Shown here one piece after another: positions 3,002-13,663 of a DNA stretch of 35,180 nucleotides. The stretch comes from Bacteroidota bacterium (lineage in GTDB: Bacteria; Bacteroidota; Bacteroidia; Chitinophagales; Chitinophagaceae): the NCBI GenBank assembly GCA_013285595.1, contig JABDHF010000021.1, positions 1-35,180 on the forward strand, given 5' to 3'. How positions within the stretch are numbered: position 1 is the stretch's first letter; each line of letters begins with the position of its first letter. The position numbers and the translations under genes are program-made. A model generated the notes under the pieces. It did not search any database and was not told where the DNA came from. It saw nothing but the letters and a program-made list of their open reading frames with translations.

Positions 3002-3727
3002 ATGACAGACTTCACACACCAAAGCTATCTCGATCTGCTCAAAAGTATTAAAGACTCCGGCAGGGAAATAAAAAGCTTCGAGAATGCTGATGCATACAAT
3101 GGGCCGCTGGTCATACTAAGGCACGATGTAGACTTCTCGCTCAGGAAAGCCCTGGAAATGGCTAAGCTGGATCATGAGGCCGGTGCCACTTCCACATTCT
3201 TCATCTTGCTTACCGCACCCTATTATAACCCGCTAACAGAAGAAGGCGTGCACCTGGTAAAAGAGATAGTGGCGCTTGGTCATGAGTGTGGGTTGCACTA
3301 CGATTGTACTGGTTTCGAATTACTAACCGAAGAGCAGCGGCAAAACCGCATCCTTACTTTCGCCAATACTCTTGGTGATGCCGTCGGGGTGCCGGTAAAA
3401 ACAATAGCGCAGCATAAACCAGCCAAGTCCCCTATACGGCAGGAGTTCCCGGCGTTCAGGGATGCATATAGTGCCCAGTATTTCAAAGACATCCCCTACA
3501 TCAGCGATAGCCGAAAGACATTCTTTTACCACACCGATGTTTTAGGCTTTATCAAGCAATACAAGAAGTGCCAGCTATTAACGCACCCCATCTGGTGGAA
3601 CCGGGAACCAATGGATATACCTGGAATATTCGGCCAGCTACTTACCACGATAAATGAGGGAATAGACAGGAATTTGCTGATGGAAGAAGGTTCGATACAG
3701 GCTTTCTTTAGCAGCAACAAAAAATAA
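3002..3727 (+). CDS. Polysaccharide deacetylase-like protein (NodB fold)
   Basis: A 241-residue protein with a short NodB-type catalytic core. HDVD at residues 41-44 matches the metal-binding/catalytic Asp motif, and GHECGLHY (93-100) supplies the later histidines. These enzymes remove acetyl groups from carbohydrates such as N-acetylhexosamines. No signal peptide is visible, so it probably acts in the cytoplasm on a nucleotide- or lipid-linked sugar. It follows the acyltransferase by 2 nt, giving an acetyl-adding and an acetyl-removing activity in one operon. The family call is reasonably firm; the substrate is not known. Confidence 0.7.
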   Translation: MTDFTHQSYLDLLKSIKDSGREIKSFENADAYNGPLVILRHDVDFSLRKALEMAKLDHEAGATSTFFILLTAPYYNPLTEEGVHLVKEIVALGHECGLHYDCTGFELLTEEQRQNRILTFANTLGDAVGVPVKTIAQHKPAKSPIRQEFPAFRDAYSAQYFKDIPYISDSRKTFFYHTDVLGFIKQYKKCQLLTHPIWWNREPMDIPGIFGQLLTTINEGIDRNLLMEEGSIQAFFSSNKK

Positions 3728-3747: not shown

Positions 3748-5781
3748 TTAAGCAGCGTACTTACTTATCCATATCATTCCGTTCTTACTTTCGTATTTAT
3801 CCAGGTAGCCTTTTTCATATATACCCTTAAGCGTCTTTGTCGCCTCTGTCATAGAAACTTTGCACAGGAATGCAAATTCTTTGGTAGTCATGGTAGGAAA
3901 CTCGCTGAACAGGTGCTGAGGGTCGGGATCTATTTCGTGCTTTTGGGCTGTTGGTATTAGTTTGTGTATGATCTCTTCAAAACGCTCATAAGGCTGAAAG
4001 CCCTTGAGCGAGAATTTCTTATCAGAGCAGTTGGAAAAGAATAAGGTAGGGAAACCCGTCACGCCAAGTTCGTGGGCCAGCTCCAGGTCTTCTTTAAATA
4101 AGTCCCTTGCATGGCCTTCAAAATCGCGCAAAAGCCTTGCCGCGTCAAGCCCCGAATCCAGCGCCGCGCGCTCCAGGTATCCCCAGCGGATGATATTCTT
4201 TTTCTCCAGGAATACCATTTCTTTGATGCGCCTTAAGAATACCAGCGCTTTCTCTTCATCCTGCATCTGCGCTGCCTTAAAAGCAACAGACGGCGGATAT
4301 GAGGAAGATAATGGGTCTTCTATCCACACGTCTCCATCCATAGGCATTTCATGCAGTGCGCATACCTCTTCCCAGTGTTCTGCCGCATCCAGTGGCTTGC
4401 CTATTCTGCCCTTCGGATATTCTTCCCACGATGGCAGCAACCCACCCATATGATATTCTACATTCACATAGTCATCATACTCCAGCTTCAGCTTTCTTAA
4501 CAGCGGTTGTAGTATCCAGCAGGTAGAGCAGATAGGATCTGTGAAATACATGATCTGTATCAGCTTATCCTTACCATTTACCGCCGGTTCTTTTTTAGGC
4601 GTTATCAGCGGCACCGGTATGTCATCATCATTATAGTCGAGCGGGTTAAGAAATATCTTCTTAAGCTCGCGGCCCAGGTAGATGTGCTTCGACACATCTT
4701 CCGATCTTATCTGGTATAGCCTTTTAAAAGCATTCTCATAATTAATGGAGCTCTCTGCTATCAGGTTAAGCGACTTGGTACTAAGCTCAGACAGCTTTTC
4801 CAGCTTTATTTCATACAGCTTCCTGAATGCCTTTTCATAGTCTACCGAATTGCCCAGGCATTGGGCCAGCGTTTTCGCATCCACAATAGCATTAGTTGTT
4901 CCGGCGCTGGTAAACGGTAGCGCCAGGTGTGCTGCATCGCCTATCAGCACCACGTTCTCTTTATGAAATGTTGGCAGCAGGTCAAAGTCGCGCGTGTTCC
5001 ATATATAGCTCGAAGAGAAATCGTTCGACTCCAGTATGTTAGCTACTATCGGCGGGAAATGCTTTAGCAGTTCCATGCAAAACGACTTCAACTCTTCGGG
5101 GCTGCTGTCAGATACATCGGCAAGAGAAGAGTCGTACTGCATAAACCATACATACTCATTGTATGCAGTAGGTATCAGCCCAAACGCAAGCCCATTGGTC
5201 TTGTTTTGGAATTTGGTAAATACGCTGGGGCTGTTTTTAGATTCCTTCTTATTTTTATATACTATGCCTACAATTTCTTTAACGGTAATAGGTGTGAAAT
5301 TCACCTTTCCAAATACAAGATCCCTCACTTTAGAATTACTGCCATCAGCGCCTACAAATATATCGCCATACTCCACGTCTCCATTTATAAATGCTGCGGC
5401 TACTATTTTGTCGTTCTCATAAACAAAGTGGGAAAATGTTCTGCCTTCTATTATTTTTTCGTTCGGGAAGATGGAGTAAAGAAAACGAATGAGGTCTACT
5501 CGTTTTATACATTGCCATGAATCCAGCTTTATATGCTTTATTTTCTCGCCATCGGGCCTGCGCAGGCAAAATTCATCTACTTTCTTACCGGGAAGCGTTA
5601 TCGCATTGTTATCAGTTAACTCATTTAAAATAGACAACCCATCGTTGTGCATAAGGAAGGCATGTCCGTGCCCCGGCATACCTTTTGACCGCTCATTTAC
5701 TACTACATCAATATTTCTTTTCAGCAAAAAGATCCCTAATGTCAAGCCTGCTACCCCTCCGCCAACTATTACAACTTTCAT
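3748..5781 (-). CDS. Fusion protein: FAD monooxygenase + SpxH-like DsbA + winged-helix tail
   Basis: A 677-residue single frame with two domains normally encoded separately. Residues 1-~390 are a UbiH/PHBH-type flavin monooxygenase: the FAD-binding GGGVAG at 7-12, the GADGSNSKVR segment (144-153) and GDAAHLALPF (281-290). Residues ~405-610 are a DsbA/FrnE thioredoxin-fold domain of the SpxH (ClpXP adaptor YjbH) type, with TDPICSTCW carrying the CxxC cysteines 418 and 421 and cis-Pro at 578 (GFPT). Residues ~625-677 look like a winged helix. Residues 314-330 and 348-364 of the linker are similar to one another, suggesting a small duplication. No internal stop or promoter is obvious; Met411 could in principle start a free DsbA part. 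It sits last in a minus-strand run after an aminotransferase. Confidence 0.85.
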   Translation of the reverse strand: MKVVIVGGGVAGLTLGIFLLKRNIDVVVNERSKGMPGHGHAFLMHNDGLSILNELTDNNAITLPGKKVDEFCLRRPDGEKIKHIKLDSWQCIKRVDLIRFLYSIFPNEKIIEGRTFSHFVYENDKIVAAAFINGDVEYGDIFVGADGSNSKVRDLVFGKVNFTPITVKEIVGIVYKNKKESKNSPSVFTKFQNKTNGLAFGLIPTAYNEYVWFMQYDSSLADVSDSSPEELKSFCMELLKHFPPIVANILESNDFSSSYIWNTRDFDLLPTFHKENVVLIGDAAHLALPFTSAGTTNAIVDAKTLAQCLGNSVDYEKAFRKLYEIKLEKLSELSTKSLNLIAESSINYENAFKRLYQIRSEDVSKHIYLGRELKKIFLNPLDYNDDDIPVPLITPKKEPAVNGKDKLIQIMYFTDPICSTCWILQPLLRKLKLEYDDYVNVEYHMGGLLPSWEEYPKGRIGKPLDAAEHWEEVCALHEMPMDGDVWIEDPLSSSYPPSVAFKAAQMQDEEKALVFLRRIKEMVFLEKKNIIRWGYLERAALDSGLDAARLLRDFEGHARDLFKEDLELAHELGVTGFPTLFFSNCSDKKFSLKGFQPYERFEEIIHKLIPTAQKHEIDPDPQHLFSEFPTMTTKEFAFLCKVSMTEATKTLKGIYEKGYLDKYESKNGMIWISKYAA

Positions 5782-5931: not shown

Positions 5932-7104
5932 TTAATTATTCAGGCTCATGGTTTTCTTTATTCGGTATAGCGCTTCTTCTAAAATTTCTTGTGAGGTGGC
6001 AAAACTAATACGAAAATACCCCTCTGATCCCGCACCAAACCATTCTTTCAGCCCTGGCACTATAGCTACCTTGGCATCCTTCATTAATATCTCATGAATT
6101 TCAGTGCTCGTTCTGTTTGTTCCTGTAATATTAATGAACGCTACATAACAACCATCAGGTGCAATGCAATTGAAACCCGGAATTGAATTCAGTTCCCGCA
6201 CACACAAATCTCTCATGTCTTTCAGATGCGCCAAAAAATCGCTGAGCCAAACTTCACACTTATCTAGGGCGGCCGCGGCGGCTATTTGAGAGATCACATT
6301 TGCACCATGTATGGTGGAATCGTGAAGGAACGCTTCGCGCAAACGGTTATAATGATCTTTATTAGACGCCATAATAGCGCCGATGCGTAGCCCGGCTAAA
6401 CCATACGATTTACTAAAGCCGGTAACCGTTACTGTCCGGTTCCTGATCTCTTCGTTTAAAGAAGCTATACTTGTAAAAACGGCAGGTGTATACACAATAT
6501 CGCTCCATATCTCATCAGATAAGATGATAAAATTGTACTTACTCGCCAGTTGGCCAAAACGCATCAGCTCTTCCCTGGTAAAAACCTTACCTGTAGGGTT
6601 AAGAGGGTTACACAAACACAGCAGCCTTGTTTTTTTGGTAATAAGGCTTTCCAACTTTTCAAAATCAACTGCTGCGGGGCCCGGGGGTATCTGGAACGGA
6701 ATGGCATTACCACCCACAGCTTCAACCGAAAAACGAAACAGGAAATCTACCGGGTCAAATATTATAGCGTCGTCGCCGGCAGATAGAAATGCTTTGCAAG
6801 TCAGGTAAATGCCAAATGCGGCGCTGTCTACAGGAAATATAAGCTCGGCAGATGCCGGAATAGAACGTTTGTTCCGAAAGTACCTGGCCATGCTTTCATT
6901 AAACTCAGGCAGGCCCGATGGGGGGCAGTAGCACAGGTATCGCTGCTGTGCAAACTCACAGATAGCAGCTGCAATTTCAGGCGCACTGGGAAAATCAGGA
7001 TCAGCAGCCGTTAGTGGAATAACCCCTTCTGGCACGGTGGCCCATCTTAAATTATACGCTCTTTTCTTAAGAATATCCAGGTTAATAGAACTATGATCAA
7101 ACAT
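5932..7104 (-). CDS. Class I/II PLP-dependent aminotransferase
   Basis: A 390-residue fold-type I enzyme of the AspC/PatB group, close to the usual length. Motifs seen: NPLNPTGKVF (167-176), SDEIW (196-200) whose Asp contacts the PLP nitrogen, SKSYGLAGLRIG with the Schiff-base Lys232, and a C-terminal FRIS that supplies the substrate-carboxylate Arg. It exchanges amino groups between an amino acid and a 2-oxo acid; the substrate cannot be told from sequence. It lies 59 nt downstream of a response regulator gene and 150 nt upstream of the monooxygenase-DsbA fusion on the same strand, so an operon is possible. No -7 element was seen directly before it. Confidence 0.8.
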   Translation of the reverse strand: MFDHSSINLDILKKRAYNLRWATVPEGVIPLTAADPDFPSAPEIAAAICEFAQQRYLCYCPPSGLPEFNESMARYFRNKRSIPASAELIFPVDSAAFGIYLTCKAFLSAGDDAIIFDPVDFLFRFSVEAVGGNAIPFQIPPGPAAVDFEKLESLITKKTRLLCLCNPLNPTGKVFTREELMRFGQLASKYNFIILSDEIWSDIVYTPAVFTSIASLNEEIRNRTVTVTGFSKSYGLAGLRIGAIMASNKDHYNRLREAFLHDSTIHGANVISQIAAAAALDKCEVWLSDFLAHLKDMRDLCVRELNSIPGFNCIAPDGCYVAFINITGTNRTSTEIHEILMKDAKVAIVPGLKEWFGAGSEGYFRISFATSQEILEEALYRIKKTMSLNN

Positions 7105-7163: not shown

Positions 7164-7583
7164 TTATTCTTTGCTCTCCGGTTCGTTCTCACTGGTAAGT
7201 ATTTCCCTGATCTTATCTTTCTTCAGTGGCTTGATGATAAAATCGTTCACCGCCGCTATATTATTTGCCCGCTCTATGTCGTGCGGAGATATAGATGAGG
7301 AGAATATATACAATTCTACTTTTTTACCAAATGTTGGCTGTATCAGGATGTACTCTTTAAGAAACTCCCATCCATCCATTATCGGCATGCTCAGATCAAG
7401 GAAAATTATATCGGGTAGCAGCTCAGCATTACTGGCAATCTCCCTTATGTATTCAATTGCTGCCTGGCCATCACCAAATTCTTTGATGTGGGCCACAATA
7501 TCCGTCTCCTGGATGCTTTTTTTAGTTAAAAAAACAAACAATTTATCATCATCTATGAGAAAAATATTTTTTTCCGGCGTCAT
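7164..7583 (-). CDS. Single-domain response regulator (CheY-like)
   Basis: A 139-residue protein made of a REC domain only. The acidic pocket is DDD at 11-13, the phospho-acceptor is Asp63 (FLDLSMPIMDGW), a serine stands at the switch position (FSSS) and Lys118 is in FIIKPLKK. There is no output domain, so it must act by protein contact or pass phosphate on. Its ATG overlaps the stop of the upstream kinase gene (ATGA), which makes that kinase its likely partner. Confidence 0.85.
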   Translation of the reverse strand: MTPEKNIFLIDDDKLFVFLTKKSIQETDIVAHIKEFGDGQAAIEYIREIASNAELLPDIIFLDLSMPIMDGWEFLKEYILIQPTFGKKVELYIFSSSISPHDIERANNIAAVNDFIIKPLKKDKIREILTSENEPESKE

Positions 7584-9583
7584 CTATCCTGGTTTTTAAA
7601 TTCAACATAAAATGTAGAGCCTTCGTCGGGGGTGCTGTCCACCCATATATTCCCGTTCATTGCTTCCACCTGCGTTTTCGTCATAAACAAACCGAATCCC
7701 TTTGCGTCAGGATGGCGGTGAAATACTTTTCCTATCTTAAAGAAGTTTTCTTTATGCTTTTCAAGATCAATACCTAAACCATTGTCTTTCACCGATAAAA
7801 TGATTGTGTCATTTATTCTCTCAGTTTTCAGCTCAATATGCGGTGTCCTTTTAGGTGATTGATATTTAAGAGTGTTGCTCACCAAGTTGTGAAAAATACT
7901 AAATAAATATTTCGATGGGCAATAAATTTTAGGTGCTAACGAAAAATCTGCCTCGATCACTGCTTTTGAATTGCTTATTTCGGTCTTTAACCCTTCAATT
8001 GTTCTTTGCAGGCAATCAGCCAGTAACATGTTCTCGTATTTTATTTCCAAGTCTTGCTTTATCTGTATAGATTCCACCAGCTCGTTAAAGGTGGTATTCA
8101 GGTGATCTATTACAGGCTCTAATTTTGAGATCAGTAACTTCTGTTCTTCCTCATCTTTGCTCTCTTCTATAAACTTCACCAGCATCCCCATATTTACAAG
8201 AGGGGCTCTTAGATTATGCGATACAATGTTACAGAAGTCTATCAGCTGCACGTTTTGTGCAGAAACCTGCTTCATTATTGCAGTTTGCTTCTCCTCCATT
8301 ATTTTACGGTCAGTGATATCAATACCGAAACCAATGACCATTGTCAACTCTCCTCTATCGTCGTGTACAGGGAATAATCTCCTTAAGTGCGTAATAGGGT
8401 TCCCCTCCGCATCCCTTATCGTATCTTCCCACCGTATTTCTTTTCCTGCTTTTTTTACTTCAAGAAACTGGTCTCTGCGTTTTTGCGCTATCGAGCGGTC
8501 TCTTTTCCGGTATTCGCAATATTGGAAATCGTCTTTACCCACAATATATTTCCGGAACTCCTCGTCTTTAATAGCTCCGGGGTTTACAAACAAGTAAGTA
8601 TGATTTGGGTCAAAAACGGCAATATCGGTAGGAAGGCTATTGAGAATGCTCTCGTAAAATTCCTTTTGTTTGTCCAGCTTATTAGTGGCTAATTTCCGGT
8701 CGGTAATGTCACTTATGAAATTAATAAAGAACCGGTTTCCGTTAATGACTGTTGGCGAAACGCCCAGCGCTATATCAAATTCAGTATTGTCTTTTCGAAG
8801 CGCGGTTATTTCTATAGTTTTATTTATTATGGGCTCATCCGGGTGCTCGTATCTTTTCATCCTTTTCAGGTGAGCCACACGGTGCCTTTCGGGTACAATA
8901 GTTTCATGCACATATTTGCCAATAGCCTCCTTTGCCTTCCACCCGAATATAGTTTCAGCTTTGGGGTTCCATTGTACGATCACACCCTTATCATCCATCA
9001 TTATTACCGCATCTATGGCATTAACAAAAATGGTGTTCATTTGCTCCTCGCTATTGCGCGATGCCTCATCTGCTTTTTCCAGGTCAGCTACCTGTAACTG
9101 CAAATTCAGCAATGCTTCAGCTTGCTTGCCCAGCATCTTCAGACCAGATAATTGCTGGTGAGACAGATCGCGCGGTTTATTATCTGCAACAAATAAATGG
9201 CCAACAGCGTACCTGTCTTTATCTATTAAAGGTATGCCTGCAAAAAAGCGGATGTTGGGATAGCCTGTAACCAGCGGATTATCAAAAATGAATTTATTGC
9301 TGAATGTATCTTCTATGATCAGTATATCGTCTTCTTTTGTAAGATCATTTACATAAAAAGCATCATCCAGCGAGATTTCAGTAAGGTTGACCCCTGATTT
9401 CGCCTTGAATAAAGACCTGGTATTATCTGTAAAGGAAATAACTGAGATCGAGGTATTACATATTTGCGCAGCTAATAACGCTATATTATTAAACTCCAAA
9501 TCAGGCAGCATATCAAATACATGCAAATGGTATGGGGCCGCAATTTGGTCGGGTTCACTCTTGGGGCTCGAGCTCACTTTCAT
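7580..9583 (-). CDS. Soluble GAF-PAS-PAS sensor histidine kinase
   Basis: A 667-residue kinase without membrane segments, hence cytoplasmic sensing. Order: GAF domain (~20-165), PAS with PAC (~180-296, ending FISDITDRK), a second PAS (~308-427, ending GIDITDRK), a HisKA-like dimerisation helix with phospho-acceptor His456 in SHNLRAP, and an HATPase domain with N-box FHNLVSN (564-570), G1 box DNGLGI (600-605) and G2 box GFGLFM (629-634). It autophosphorylates on His456 in response to an unknown cytosolic cue, probably a small ligand or redox state sensed by GAF/PAS. The stop overlaps the start of the single-domain regulator, its probable target. Confidence 0.85.
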   Translation of the reverse strand: MKVSSSPKSEPDQIAAPYHLHVFDMLPDLEFNNIALLAAQICNTSISVISFTDNTRSLFKAKSGVNLTEISLDDAFYVNDLTKEDDILIIEDTFSNKFIFDNPLVTGYPNIRFFAGIPLIDKDRYAVGHLFVADNKPRDLSHQQLSGLKMLGKQAEALLNLQLQVADLEKADEASRNSEEQMNTIFVNAIDAVIMMDDKGVIVQWNPKAETIFGWKAKEAIGKYVHETIVPERHRVAHLKRMKRYEHPDEPIINKTIEITALRKDNTEFDIALGVSPTVINGNRFFINFISDITDRKLATNKLDKQKEFYESILNSLPTDIAVFDPNHTYLFVNPGAIKDEEFRKYIVGKDDFQYCEYRKRDRSIAQKRRDQFLEVKKAGKEIRWEDTIRDAEGNPITHLRRLFPVHDDRGELTMVIGFGIDITDRKIMEEKQTAIMKQVSAQNVQLIDFCNIVSHNLRAPLVNMGMLVKFIEESKDEEEQKLLISKLEPVIDHLNTTFNELVESIQIKQDLEIKYENMLLADCLQRTIEGLKTEISNSKAVIEADFSLAPKIYCPSKYLFSIFHNLVSNTLKYQSPKRTPHIELKTERINDTIILSVKDNGLGIDLEKHKENFFKIGKVFHRHPDAKGFGLFMTKTQVEAMNGNIWVDSTPDEGSTFYVEFKNQDR

Positions 9584-12222: not shown

Positions 12223-13359
12223 TCAAAATCCAAAGCCTATTCCCAACTCGCCAAACTCGGCCGATGTCTTGTGCGTTTTTAGAAAGGCAGATAAAAAGAA
12301 CTCTTTGACTGGGCCATGCTCTCTTTGCACTATATAGTAATGGCCACCTACTTTTTCGTAATAAGGATCGGTTGTCAGGTAAGCCTGTTTCAGGTAAACG
12401 CCTACTTGCAATACTATGCCTATCCTCCCCAGTAAAAACTCATTACCAAAGAACACTGCGCTTTTATAAGAGCTTTGAGCTTCTTTGCCTGCCTCCAGCC
12501 CATTGTTCCGCAAATAAGCATAGATATTATCGTGGTAGGAGTAGTCAATGCCGGCAAAAGCTTTATTCTTACTCAGCCACCGCTTGCTCATAAAACCCGA
12601 AGCAATATATACAGGGTATAACGGCCCTGATGGGGTATTGCCCGATACATAGGCCATGCTCAGCCTCACCTGTGCCAGCCAGCGGTTTTTAAGCCGAGTT
12701 AGCTTCCGCTCTATACGTGGCGGCCTCGAAGTGACTGGAAAATACCGGAAACCTATATGGCCGCCATACATATTAATGCCAAGGTTCGGTTTATGAAAAG
12801 AAGCATCAGAGATATGGGTAAACTGCCCCCCCACCTGCACATCCCAATGTTTATTTACATGATACCGCAGATTTGTCATAAACTGTGCATAGTCATTAAT
12901 ATGGCTGCCGATAGCCACATTTATCGTATCAATGGGGGCTATCCTTCTGTAATCTTTCGTCACATAGCCTATACCATCGCCTATGCGTAATGTCCATTCC
13001 AGGCGTTTACCACTGATCAATGGTAATGTAATATTGGGGTATAAGCTTGCACACTGCCCATACACTGCATCCATTCCGTAATTAATATAAGTAACGCCAA
13101 TACCTACAGTAGGATACTTACGGCGCTGCTCCCATGCTTTTTTGCCATAGGCATGCAGCAGCAGGTTTACATCAAGCCCTGTTGATAATTTAGGGATAGG
13201 TAAAGTAAATTTAGCCTCATGCTTAAACACCTTCCCGGCAAAAGGGTTCACTTCTATCCCAAAACCCGACCAGGGTGTTACATAAGGCAGCGTTTCCTGT
13301 GCCCTGCATCCGTAAGATAGTACCAGGAACAGCAACAACAGCTTTAGCGATGTCCTCAC
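12223..13359 (-). CDS. PagL-like outer-membrane lipid A deacylase (acyloxyacyl hydrolase family)
   Basis: A 378-residue protein from the GTG at 13359, the start that gives a normal signal peptide (MRTSLKLLLLFLVLSYGCRAQ); a TTG at 13374 would overlap the upstream gene. The rest alternates short amphipathic strands and ends in FGF, as outer-membrane barrels do. The segment HISDASFHKPNLGIN (His182, Ser184) resembles the catalytic H-x-S of PagL lipid A 3-O-deacylase; the third catalytic residue (Glu) is not evident at the expected place. It is longer than PagL because of a C-terminal extension. It starts 8 nt after the stop of the small membrane protein gene, so the two form an operon. Family call likely; activity uncertain. 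Confidence 0.6.
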   Translation of the reverse strand: MRTSLKLLLLFLVLSYGCRAQETLPYVTPWSGFGIEVNPFAGKVFKHEAKFTLPIPKLSTGLDVNLLLHAYGKKAWEQRRKYPTVGIGVTYINYGMDAVYGQCASLYPNITLPLISGKRLEWTLRIGDGIGYVTKDYRRIAPIDTINVAIGSHINDYAQFMTNLRYHVNKHWDVQVGGQFTHISDASFHKPNLGINMYGGHIGFRYFPVTSRPPRIERKLTRLKNRWLAQVRLSMAYVSGNTPSGPLYPVYIASGFMSKRWLSKNKAFAGIDYSYHDNIYAYLRNNGLEAGKEAQSSYKSAVFFGNEFLLGRIGIVLQVGVYLKQAYLTTDPYYEKVGGHYYIVQREHGPVKEFFLSAFLKTHKTSAEFGELGIGFGF

Positions 13360-13366
13360 AGTTAGA

Positions 13367-13663
13367 TCACACAATGGATGGCAAAAGGTTAATATTATGC
13401 TTACCCGCTACTTTAATAAGTATAGGCATTACTATAGAGGCCCCCGGTATCAGCACAAACGGAACCACAATACCCACTATCTTCAGCGTATCTGCCAGTT
13501 GCAGCCTTAGCGCCTTTTCTTCATCTTCAGATATGGCGCCTGTGGCTACGTATTTCCTTATTATTACTGCGGTTTCTCTTGTATTTGCCTCCTCTTTATG
13601 CACACTTATTAGTAAGTGATGGGCTCCATCCTCAATATGCTGTATTATATTGGCGCTATTCAT
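13367..13663 (-). CDS. Small membrane-associated hypothetical protein
   Basis: A 98-residue protein from the ATG at 13663. The first 60 residues are helical and charged; then comes one hydrophobic stretch (IVGIVVPFVLIPGASIVMPI) and a short basic tail. The C-terminal pattern P-G-A-S-x-x-x-P-x-L-I-K resembles LETM1-related proteins of Bacteroidota, but the similarity is too short for a name. ATG 13663 is preferred over a longer frame because an exact -7 element ends 4 nt before it. The next gene on the strand is the PagL-like barrel, 7 nt away. Confidence 0.6.
   Translation of the reverse strand: MNSANIIQHIEDGAHHLLISVHKEEANTRETAVIIRKYVATGAISEDEEKALRLQLADTLKIVGIVVPFVLIPGASIVMPILIKVAGKHNINLLPSIV

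Follow-up and report, generated by a model that had tools for sequence, protein, structure and literature searches.

A FAD monooxygenase fused to a YjbH/SpxH-family thioredoxin module beside a PLP-enzyme gene in Bacteroidota

The fusion gene and its surroundings

The window analysed here is a 35,180-nucleotide stretch of DNA from a Chitinophagaceae genome (GCA_013285595.1, contig JABDHF010000021.1), and is contig 21 of a 2.93 Mb assembly of 146 contigs that is 59.6% complete. It carries a gene in which a FAD monooxygenase (FMO) and a protein of the YjbH/SpxH family are read as one polypeptide (Table 1). The initial annotation had placed this gene exactly but gave no strand; it lies on the minus strand. 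As had been claimed, one frame with no internal stop joins the two halves, all three FAD monooxygenase motifs can be located in the N-terminal half, and the C-terminal half is of SpxH/YjbH type with a CSTC motif. The architecture is unusual and its two families had been correctly named, the Pfam and PDB matches being in agreement. Pfam recognized FAD_binding_3 at residues 2-310 (E 8e-18, 65.2 bits against a cut-off of 22), Thioredoxin_5 at residues 412-602 (E 2e-47, 161.8 bits against a cut-off of 27), and DSBA at residues 410-605. Geobacillus YjbH (6ghb/6gho) was the best PDB match of the C-terminal part (E 8e-44, aligned over residues 7-274 of the 280-residue query; E 2.6e-43 when the full-length fusion was searched), and the thioredoxin domain, the alignment over the winged-helix region, and the CxxC motif of the YjbH/SpxH family are all found in the window protein. 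What had been described as a winged-helix tail is present, but it is the ordinary YjbH C-terminus rather than a separate addition, as seen from the 6ghb alignment and the domain naming in the part of PMC7253607 that we consulted.

Table 1. Features of the fusion locus in the window
Feature	Position	Strand	Basis or remark
FMO-SpxH fusion gene	3748-5781	minus	single stop-free frame, 677 aa, ATG start
FAD monooxygenase part, residues ~1-345	4747-5781	minus	FAD_binding_3, motifs, profile matches
GGGVAG motif	5746-5763	minus	
ADGSNSKVR motif	5323-5349	minus	
GDAAH motif	4927-4941	minus	
Linker, residues ~346-401	4579-4746	minus	interdomain stretch
Candidate old tandem duplication, 33 residues, close to the join	4651-4848	minus	33-column insertion relative to three aligned relatives
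YjbH/SpxH-family part, residues 402-677	3751-4578	minus	6ghb match, Thioredoxin_5; thioredoxin domain and C-terminal winged-helix region
CSTC active-site motif, C418 and C421	4519-4530	minus	
Region matching the YjbH winged helix, residues ~610-677	3751-3954	minus	6ghb alignment; domain name from the consulted part of PMC7253607
Fold-type-I PLP enzyme (PatB C-S lyase/aminotransferase-like), upstream of the fusion	5932-7104	minus	
Protein with a single receiver domain, preceding the PLP gene	7164-7583	minus	Response_reg
PAS/GAF histidine kinase, preceding the receiver gene	7580-9583	minus	

The fusion is a real two-domain protein, and is probably cytosolic. The mean pLDDT of AlphaFold models was 33.7 for the window protein alone and 40.6 with three homologues, values too low for contact between the domains to be judged. 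The 33 extra residues of the window copy are possibly an old tandem duplication, 47 of 99 bases being identical between the putative repeats. No FMO-SpxH fusion is described in the excerpts of the open-licence literature that were searched (PMC7253607, PMC10434189), and protein-architecture databases may list it.

Other genes of the window include one on the plus strand (3002-3727) for a 241-residue protein with no Pfam or NCBIfam match at E 0.001, which presumably resembles polysaccharide deacetylases and is directly preceded by a gene for a hexapeptide-repeat protein (1836-2999). A PagL-like lipid A deacylase domain is encoded at 12223-13374 on the minus strand.

Distribution and selection

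From the fetched loci we collected 28 forward fusions, with the domains in the same order as in the window (window included), three fusions in the reversed order, 15 lone FMOs, and lone SpxH genes. Forward fusions were 639-686 residues long as called by script with unchecked start codons, and reversed fusions 657-664 residues. In the family set, at least 10 of 195 genomes held both halves in one open frame, the window's own genome included; the order set of 396 genomes gave ten with a forward fusion, one more that runs off the end of its contig (G250), and two reversed; forward fusions were present in 11 of the 395 genomes of the class set, with one reversed; and 2 of 395 genomes in the phylum set had a fusion. 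These sets overlap, with the window's own genome in each, and because their thresholds differed (1e-3, 1e-30, 1e-25, and 1e-20) diverged fusions may have escaped the count. Three more fusions were found on GTDB contigs, including that of Pedobacter duraquae strain DSM 19034 (L035). Besides three named contigs, the forward fusions are spread over 11 family codes in a patchy distribution, and lone versions of both halves occur in relatives too. In G247, which shares its genus code with the reversed G209, a contig breaks off after 164 residues whose start is nearly like that of the reversed L147; judged by this likeness it is probably a truncated reversed fusion, and it was left out of the counts.

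Two loci from different family codes, L167 and L169, have in common a 4.9 kb block with 93% DNA identity (L167:4767-9633, L169:5069-9935), an identity which suggests that the block was likely transferred horizontally between families. A 99% complete genome of the same genus as the window (G171) was without matches to the fusion (E 0.001), to PF13743, and to the PLP enzyme (E 1e-30), as if the operon had been gained and lost as a unit.

Nei-Gojobori dN/dS values were calculated for nine pairs of fusion genes with the halves taken separately. In the two pairs that were measurable for both halves, the ratios were 0.134 for the FMO and 0.119 for SpxH (L164/L166), and 0.133 and 0.150 (L158/L165), indicating that both halves are under purifying selection. 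In two other pairs dS was saturated in the SpxH half, with FMO ratios of 0.084 (L041/L043) and 0.094 (L162/L163); it was saturated in both halves in four (window/L036, L033/L035, L037/L039, and L042/L160), and L167/L169, with values of 0.31 and 0.53, are too similar for judgement. A frameshift or misassembly that joined two genes in this fragmented, 59.6% complete assembly found no support and is very unlikely indeed, given 27 further one-frame forward fusions of similar length, that of P. duraquae among them, and selection acting on both halves. Separate genes in relatives with a frameshift in the window, named at the outset as the finding that would speak against a true fusion, are thus not what we observed.

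Two orders of fusion and losses of the module

In a quick FMO tree, the forward fusions shared one branch (96) with two lone FMOs, L168 and L173, and the three reversed fusions grouped together (90) among other lone FMOs; in a more careful tree of 45 rows, support for the reversed group was 97/89. A clade uniting forward and reversed fusions with L168 and L173, which was chosen after the first tree had been seen, was rejected on the FMO tree (p-AU 0.006). A clade of the 28 forward fusions excluding L168 and L173 was also rejected (p 3e-7), so these two are nested among the forward fusions. In the SpxH tree (101 rows), the reversed fusions adjoined the forward ones with a support of 88 and with long branches flagged. 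Apparently there were two separate fusion events, for which the FMO tree speaks while the SpxH tree is less clear, and the permutation of one order into the other is less likely. Whichever the order, the SpxH module sits on the PLP-distal end of the FMO.

Their position among the forward fusions in the FMO tree makes L168 and L173 losses of the attached module. Two decayed pieces of the fused module remain in L168 (3058-5533), adjacent to an intact lone SpxH gene, and its close kin L167 and L169 have both a fused module and a neighbouring lone SpxH gene. For L173, no significant remnant of the fused module was found beyond the linker, and its genome has a lone SpxH at another place.

The monooxygenase and its PLP partner

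The window FMO has the FAD_binding_3 domain and the three motifs of group A FAD monooxygenases, which we take to be those named GxGxxG, DG, and GD, and eight residues were invariant in 17 aligned FMO sequences (G7, G9, G12, D146, G147, R153, G281, and D282). An FMO profile of 17 sequences had 6-hydroxynicotinate 3-monooxygenase as its best match; flavoprotein monooxygenases of the Tet(50)/Tet(51) type and others came next, and the matches were mostly aromatic and N-heterocycle hydroxylases. None of the best 25 of 47 NCBIfam models reached its cut-off, and the top one was PRK06753 (118.6 of 365 bits). A tetracycline destructase was rejected on its score (NF033476, 60.2 of 550 bits), as were HpxO and other named hydroxylases, with scores far under the curated cut-offs.

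With the window PLP enzyme as a tblastn query, a PLP gene on the same strand was found adjoining 24 of 28 forward fusions, in every case upstream, and all three reversed fusions, downstream. Of the 15 lone FMOs, 14 have it too, 11 with the PLP gene downstream and three with it upstream; the one left without this neighbour is a distant paralogue in the window's own genome. The distance from alignment edge to gene was at most 42 bases in 38 of 41 cases, the others being 83 (L048), 154 (window), and 421 (L173). Where a forward fusion had no PLP neighbour (G068, G148, G154, and G078), a PLP relative lies elsewhere in the genome beside a lone FMO, and two of these four loci include less than 1.6 kb of upstream sequence. 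Such adjacency points to a shared pathway for the FMO and PLP genes. The order kinase, receiver, PLP gene is common to the window, L033, L035, L036, L163, and L173, and L040 has a related kinase on the opposite side without a receiver.

A profile of 22 PLP enzymes had aspartate and aromatic aminotransferases as its top matches with PatB-type lyases close behind, and all 22 also matched GntC and aminotransferase models. The best NCBIfam match of the window enzyme was TIGR04350, a PatB C-S lyase model (219.4 of 340 bits), and no cut-off was reached among the best 25 of 71 and the best 25 of 26 models; PatB and GntC were both rejected as names on these scores.

A gene for tryptophanase TnaA, above the equivalog cut-off, lies directly upstream of the lone FMO-PLP pair in two loci of one genus (L152:4237-5688, L153:4478-5854), a hint at aromatic amino acids. 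Tryptophanase-sized genes were present in 6 of 15 forward-fusion genomes searched (G097, G068, G020, G851, G836, and G614), in none of the three reversed-fusion genomes, and not in G171; the window's own genome (G000) is only 59.6% complete. With tnaA beside two lone-FMO operons of a single genus and these genome counts, tryptophan or indole is no more than a conceivable substrate. Ten other neighbours had no common theme: two were without a match, and the rest were a 3-hydroxyacyl-CoA dehydrogenase, an M16 peptidase, a beta-eliminating lyase, a TonB receptor, a glycoside hydrolase, an esterase, an alcohol dehydrogenase, and a PAS kinase.

The SpxH module and its lone relatives

The CxxC motif is intact in 25 of 28 forward fusions, in all three reversed fusions, and in all 70 rows labelled as lone, one of which (L159) is really a fusion truncated where its contig stops. 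The second cysteine is lost in three forward fusions, the motif reading CSAS in the closely related L167 and L169, where the lone SpxH gene lies next to the fused module, and CSTS in L044. The motif is described as common, not universal, in the YjbH/SpxH family in the part of PMC7253607 consulted.

Lone SpxH-like proteins of Bacteroidota have an extra N-terminal cysteine pair, mostly NPLLCDxxxGxC, in 65 of 68 sequences, the three exceptions being far outgroup rows, whereas no forward fusion (0 of 28) has such a pair in the 50 residues ahead of the module. By simple pattern counts over the same 68 sequences, a hydrophobic stretch precedes the pair in 53 and a C..Q pattern follows that stretch in 42, and this N-terminus looks like an export or lipoprotein leader; a methionine stands between leader and pair in 64, so that an internal, cytosolic start is possible. 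Examples of the lone genes are L055:6632-7621, L167:5478-6515, and L066:6426-7436. A small divergent gene of one family adjoins the lone SpxH in 13 of 21 loci (among them L055, L058, L059, L062, L066, L067, L069, and L072), within 400 bases in eight and within 740 in the rest; L071 was measured to a second, downstream copy, the upstream one being nearer. The single member scanned is of the HxlR family, a neighbour which suggests that lone SpxH may be induced by thiol-reactive stress.

What the fusion may do

Of 13 genomes searched for PF13743, ten carry an FMO-PLP pair in which the FMO is lone, and have no fusion. A match was absent in four of the ten (G172, G016, G015, and G1109), weak or short in another four (G060, G041, G483, and G1060), and strong in two (G398 and G825). 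The four absences, which rest on family searches of draft genomes, indicate that SpxH is dispensable to the FMO-PLP pair.

Judged from the sequences, the fused thioredoxin module most probably either copes with a peroxide or reactive product that the FMO gives off or does no more than maintain the enzyme. We tentatively prefer the first, at a probability of about 0.42: a small metabolic operon of PLP enzyme and FMO to which a YjbH/SpxH module was added that deals with the thiol-reactive product or peroxide in place. The PLP enzyme and the FMO would act successively on an amino-acid-derived compound, probably aromatic, and would give rise to a thiol-reactive species, either the oxygenated product itself or H2O2 that escapes from uncoupled flavin. 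The CXXC of the module, positioned beside the flavin site, would reduce or discharge the reactive species and would regain its electrons from cellular thiol reductants. The module would help without being needed, since the FMO-PLP pair of other branches operates with no SpxH. Against this explanation stand the loss of the second cysteine in 3 of 28 fusions, the four fusions without a PLP neighbour, the dispensability of SpxH to the pair, and the patchy presence of tryptophanase-sized genes, while the placement of the reversed fusions in the SpxH tree speaks against full independence of the two orders.

Rather unlikely, though next in rank, is upkeep alone, in which the module preserves the folding and the reduced state of the FMO or the PLP enzyme but has no part in the chemistry. 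Thioredoxin folds commonly keep partner proteins reduced or folded, and such a role would suit L168 and L173, where the module was lost, the FMO retained, and a lone SpxH is present in both genomes. FMOs of other branches, however, manage without SpxH (G172, G016, G015, and G1109), and fusion in two orders suggests more than incidental proximity.

We consider it unlikely that the operon performs sulfur chemistry, with a PLP C-S beta-lyase freeing a thiol or sulfenate, the FMO S-oxygenating it, and SpxH making or breaking a disulfide. Among NCBIfam models the window PLP enzyme scores highest with PatB C-S lyase, below the cut-off of 340, and cysteine-S-conjugate beta-lyases appear among the PDB matches, but the 22-enzyme profile fits aspartate and aromatic aminotransferases best, all 22 match GntC as well, and group A FMOs mostly hydroxylate aromatics.

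More doubtful still is a built-in dithiol relay, in which electrons would move directly between the CXXC and either the flavin (or its peroxide) or the bound product, coupling oxygenation to thiol oxidation in the cytosol. The flavin domain of the forward fusion occupies the position of the N-terminal cysteine pair of the lone Bacteroidota homologues, and the reversed fusion would have reached the same FMO-SpxH pairing independently.

Last among these functional readings, and improbable, is the redox-linked proteolysis that the initial annotation had proposed alongside a disulfide step, with the SpxH module delivering clients to ClpXP and the FAD domain as the sensor. The module matches YjbH over its full length including the winged-helix region, some members of the clade have a kinase and a receiver in the cassette as well, and YjbH is the adaptor for Spx degradation in Bacillus subtilis according to the consulted part of PMC7253607. 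The same source reports that, in Listeria, YjbH depends on its CXXC both to function and to make several protein contacts; retention of the motif is therefore just as compatible with an adaptor. The fusion gene, in contrast, is paired with a gene for a PLP enzyme, and the ArsC/Spx-family search of 14 genomes gave no match in G068 and G851, which carry the fusion and are each 99% complete. Some ArsC-family match was found in the other 12, among which Spx models were run on the two proteins of the window's own genome: by NF002459 they are not Spx, their 31.8 and 21.2 bits falling far short of the required 123. One of them is arsenate-reductase-like; the other, which we take to be YffB-like from model PRK10853, barely passes the broad TIGR01617 (75.8 against 75.05 bits). 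With Spx found in neither G068 nor G851 and the PLP neighbour conserved, proteolysis through Spx is weakly supported, though ClpXP clients other than Spx are conceivable, and the fusion may serve a dedicated thiol or disulfide step.

The same modules fused both ways, together with a conserved PLP gene, are the type of evidence that links proteins of obscure role. They suggest that YjbH-type proteins, known from Bacillus as adaptors for Spx, take part in metabolism or detoxification in Bacteroidota. The operon is compact, its genes in the window amounting to some 3.2 kb of coding DNA, and is amenable to expression and assay.

Comparison with known systems

The operon partner belongs to the same fold-type-I group as PatB C-S lyase, GntC, and the class I aminotransferases, but stays below the cut-offs of the best-listed NCBIfam models. 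The window FMO likewise has its domain family and motifs in common with the group A FAD monooxygenases, such as 6-hydroxynicotinate 3-monooxygenase, HpxO, the Tet(50) type, and MHPCO, from which it differs in additionally bearing an SpxH module and in scoring under the cut-off in the best 25 of 47 models. Geobacillus YjbH (UPF0413 protein GK0824, 6ghb/6gho) aligns with residues 402-671 of the fusion, winged-helix region included, but is a separate protein, whereas the window module is fused to a monooxygenase and occurs without a clear Spx in the genomes checked. The lone SpxH-like proteins of Bacteroidota, mostly ~300-375 residues long, are in their strong matches ~39-58% identical to the fused module.
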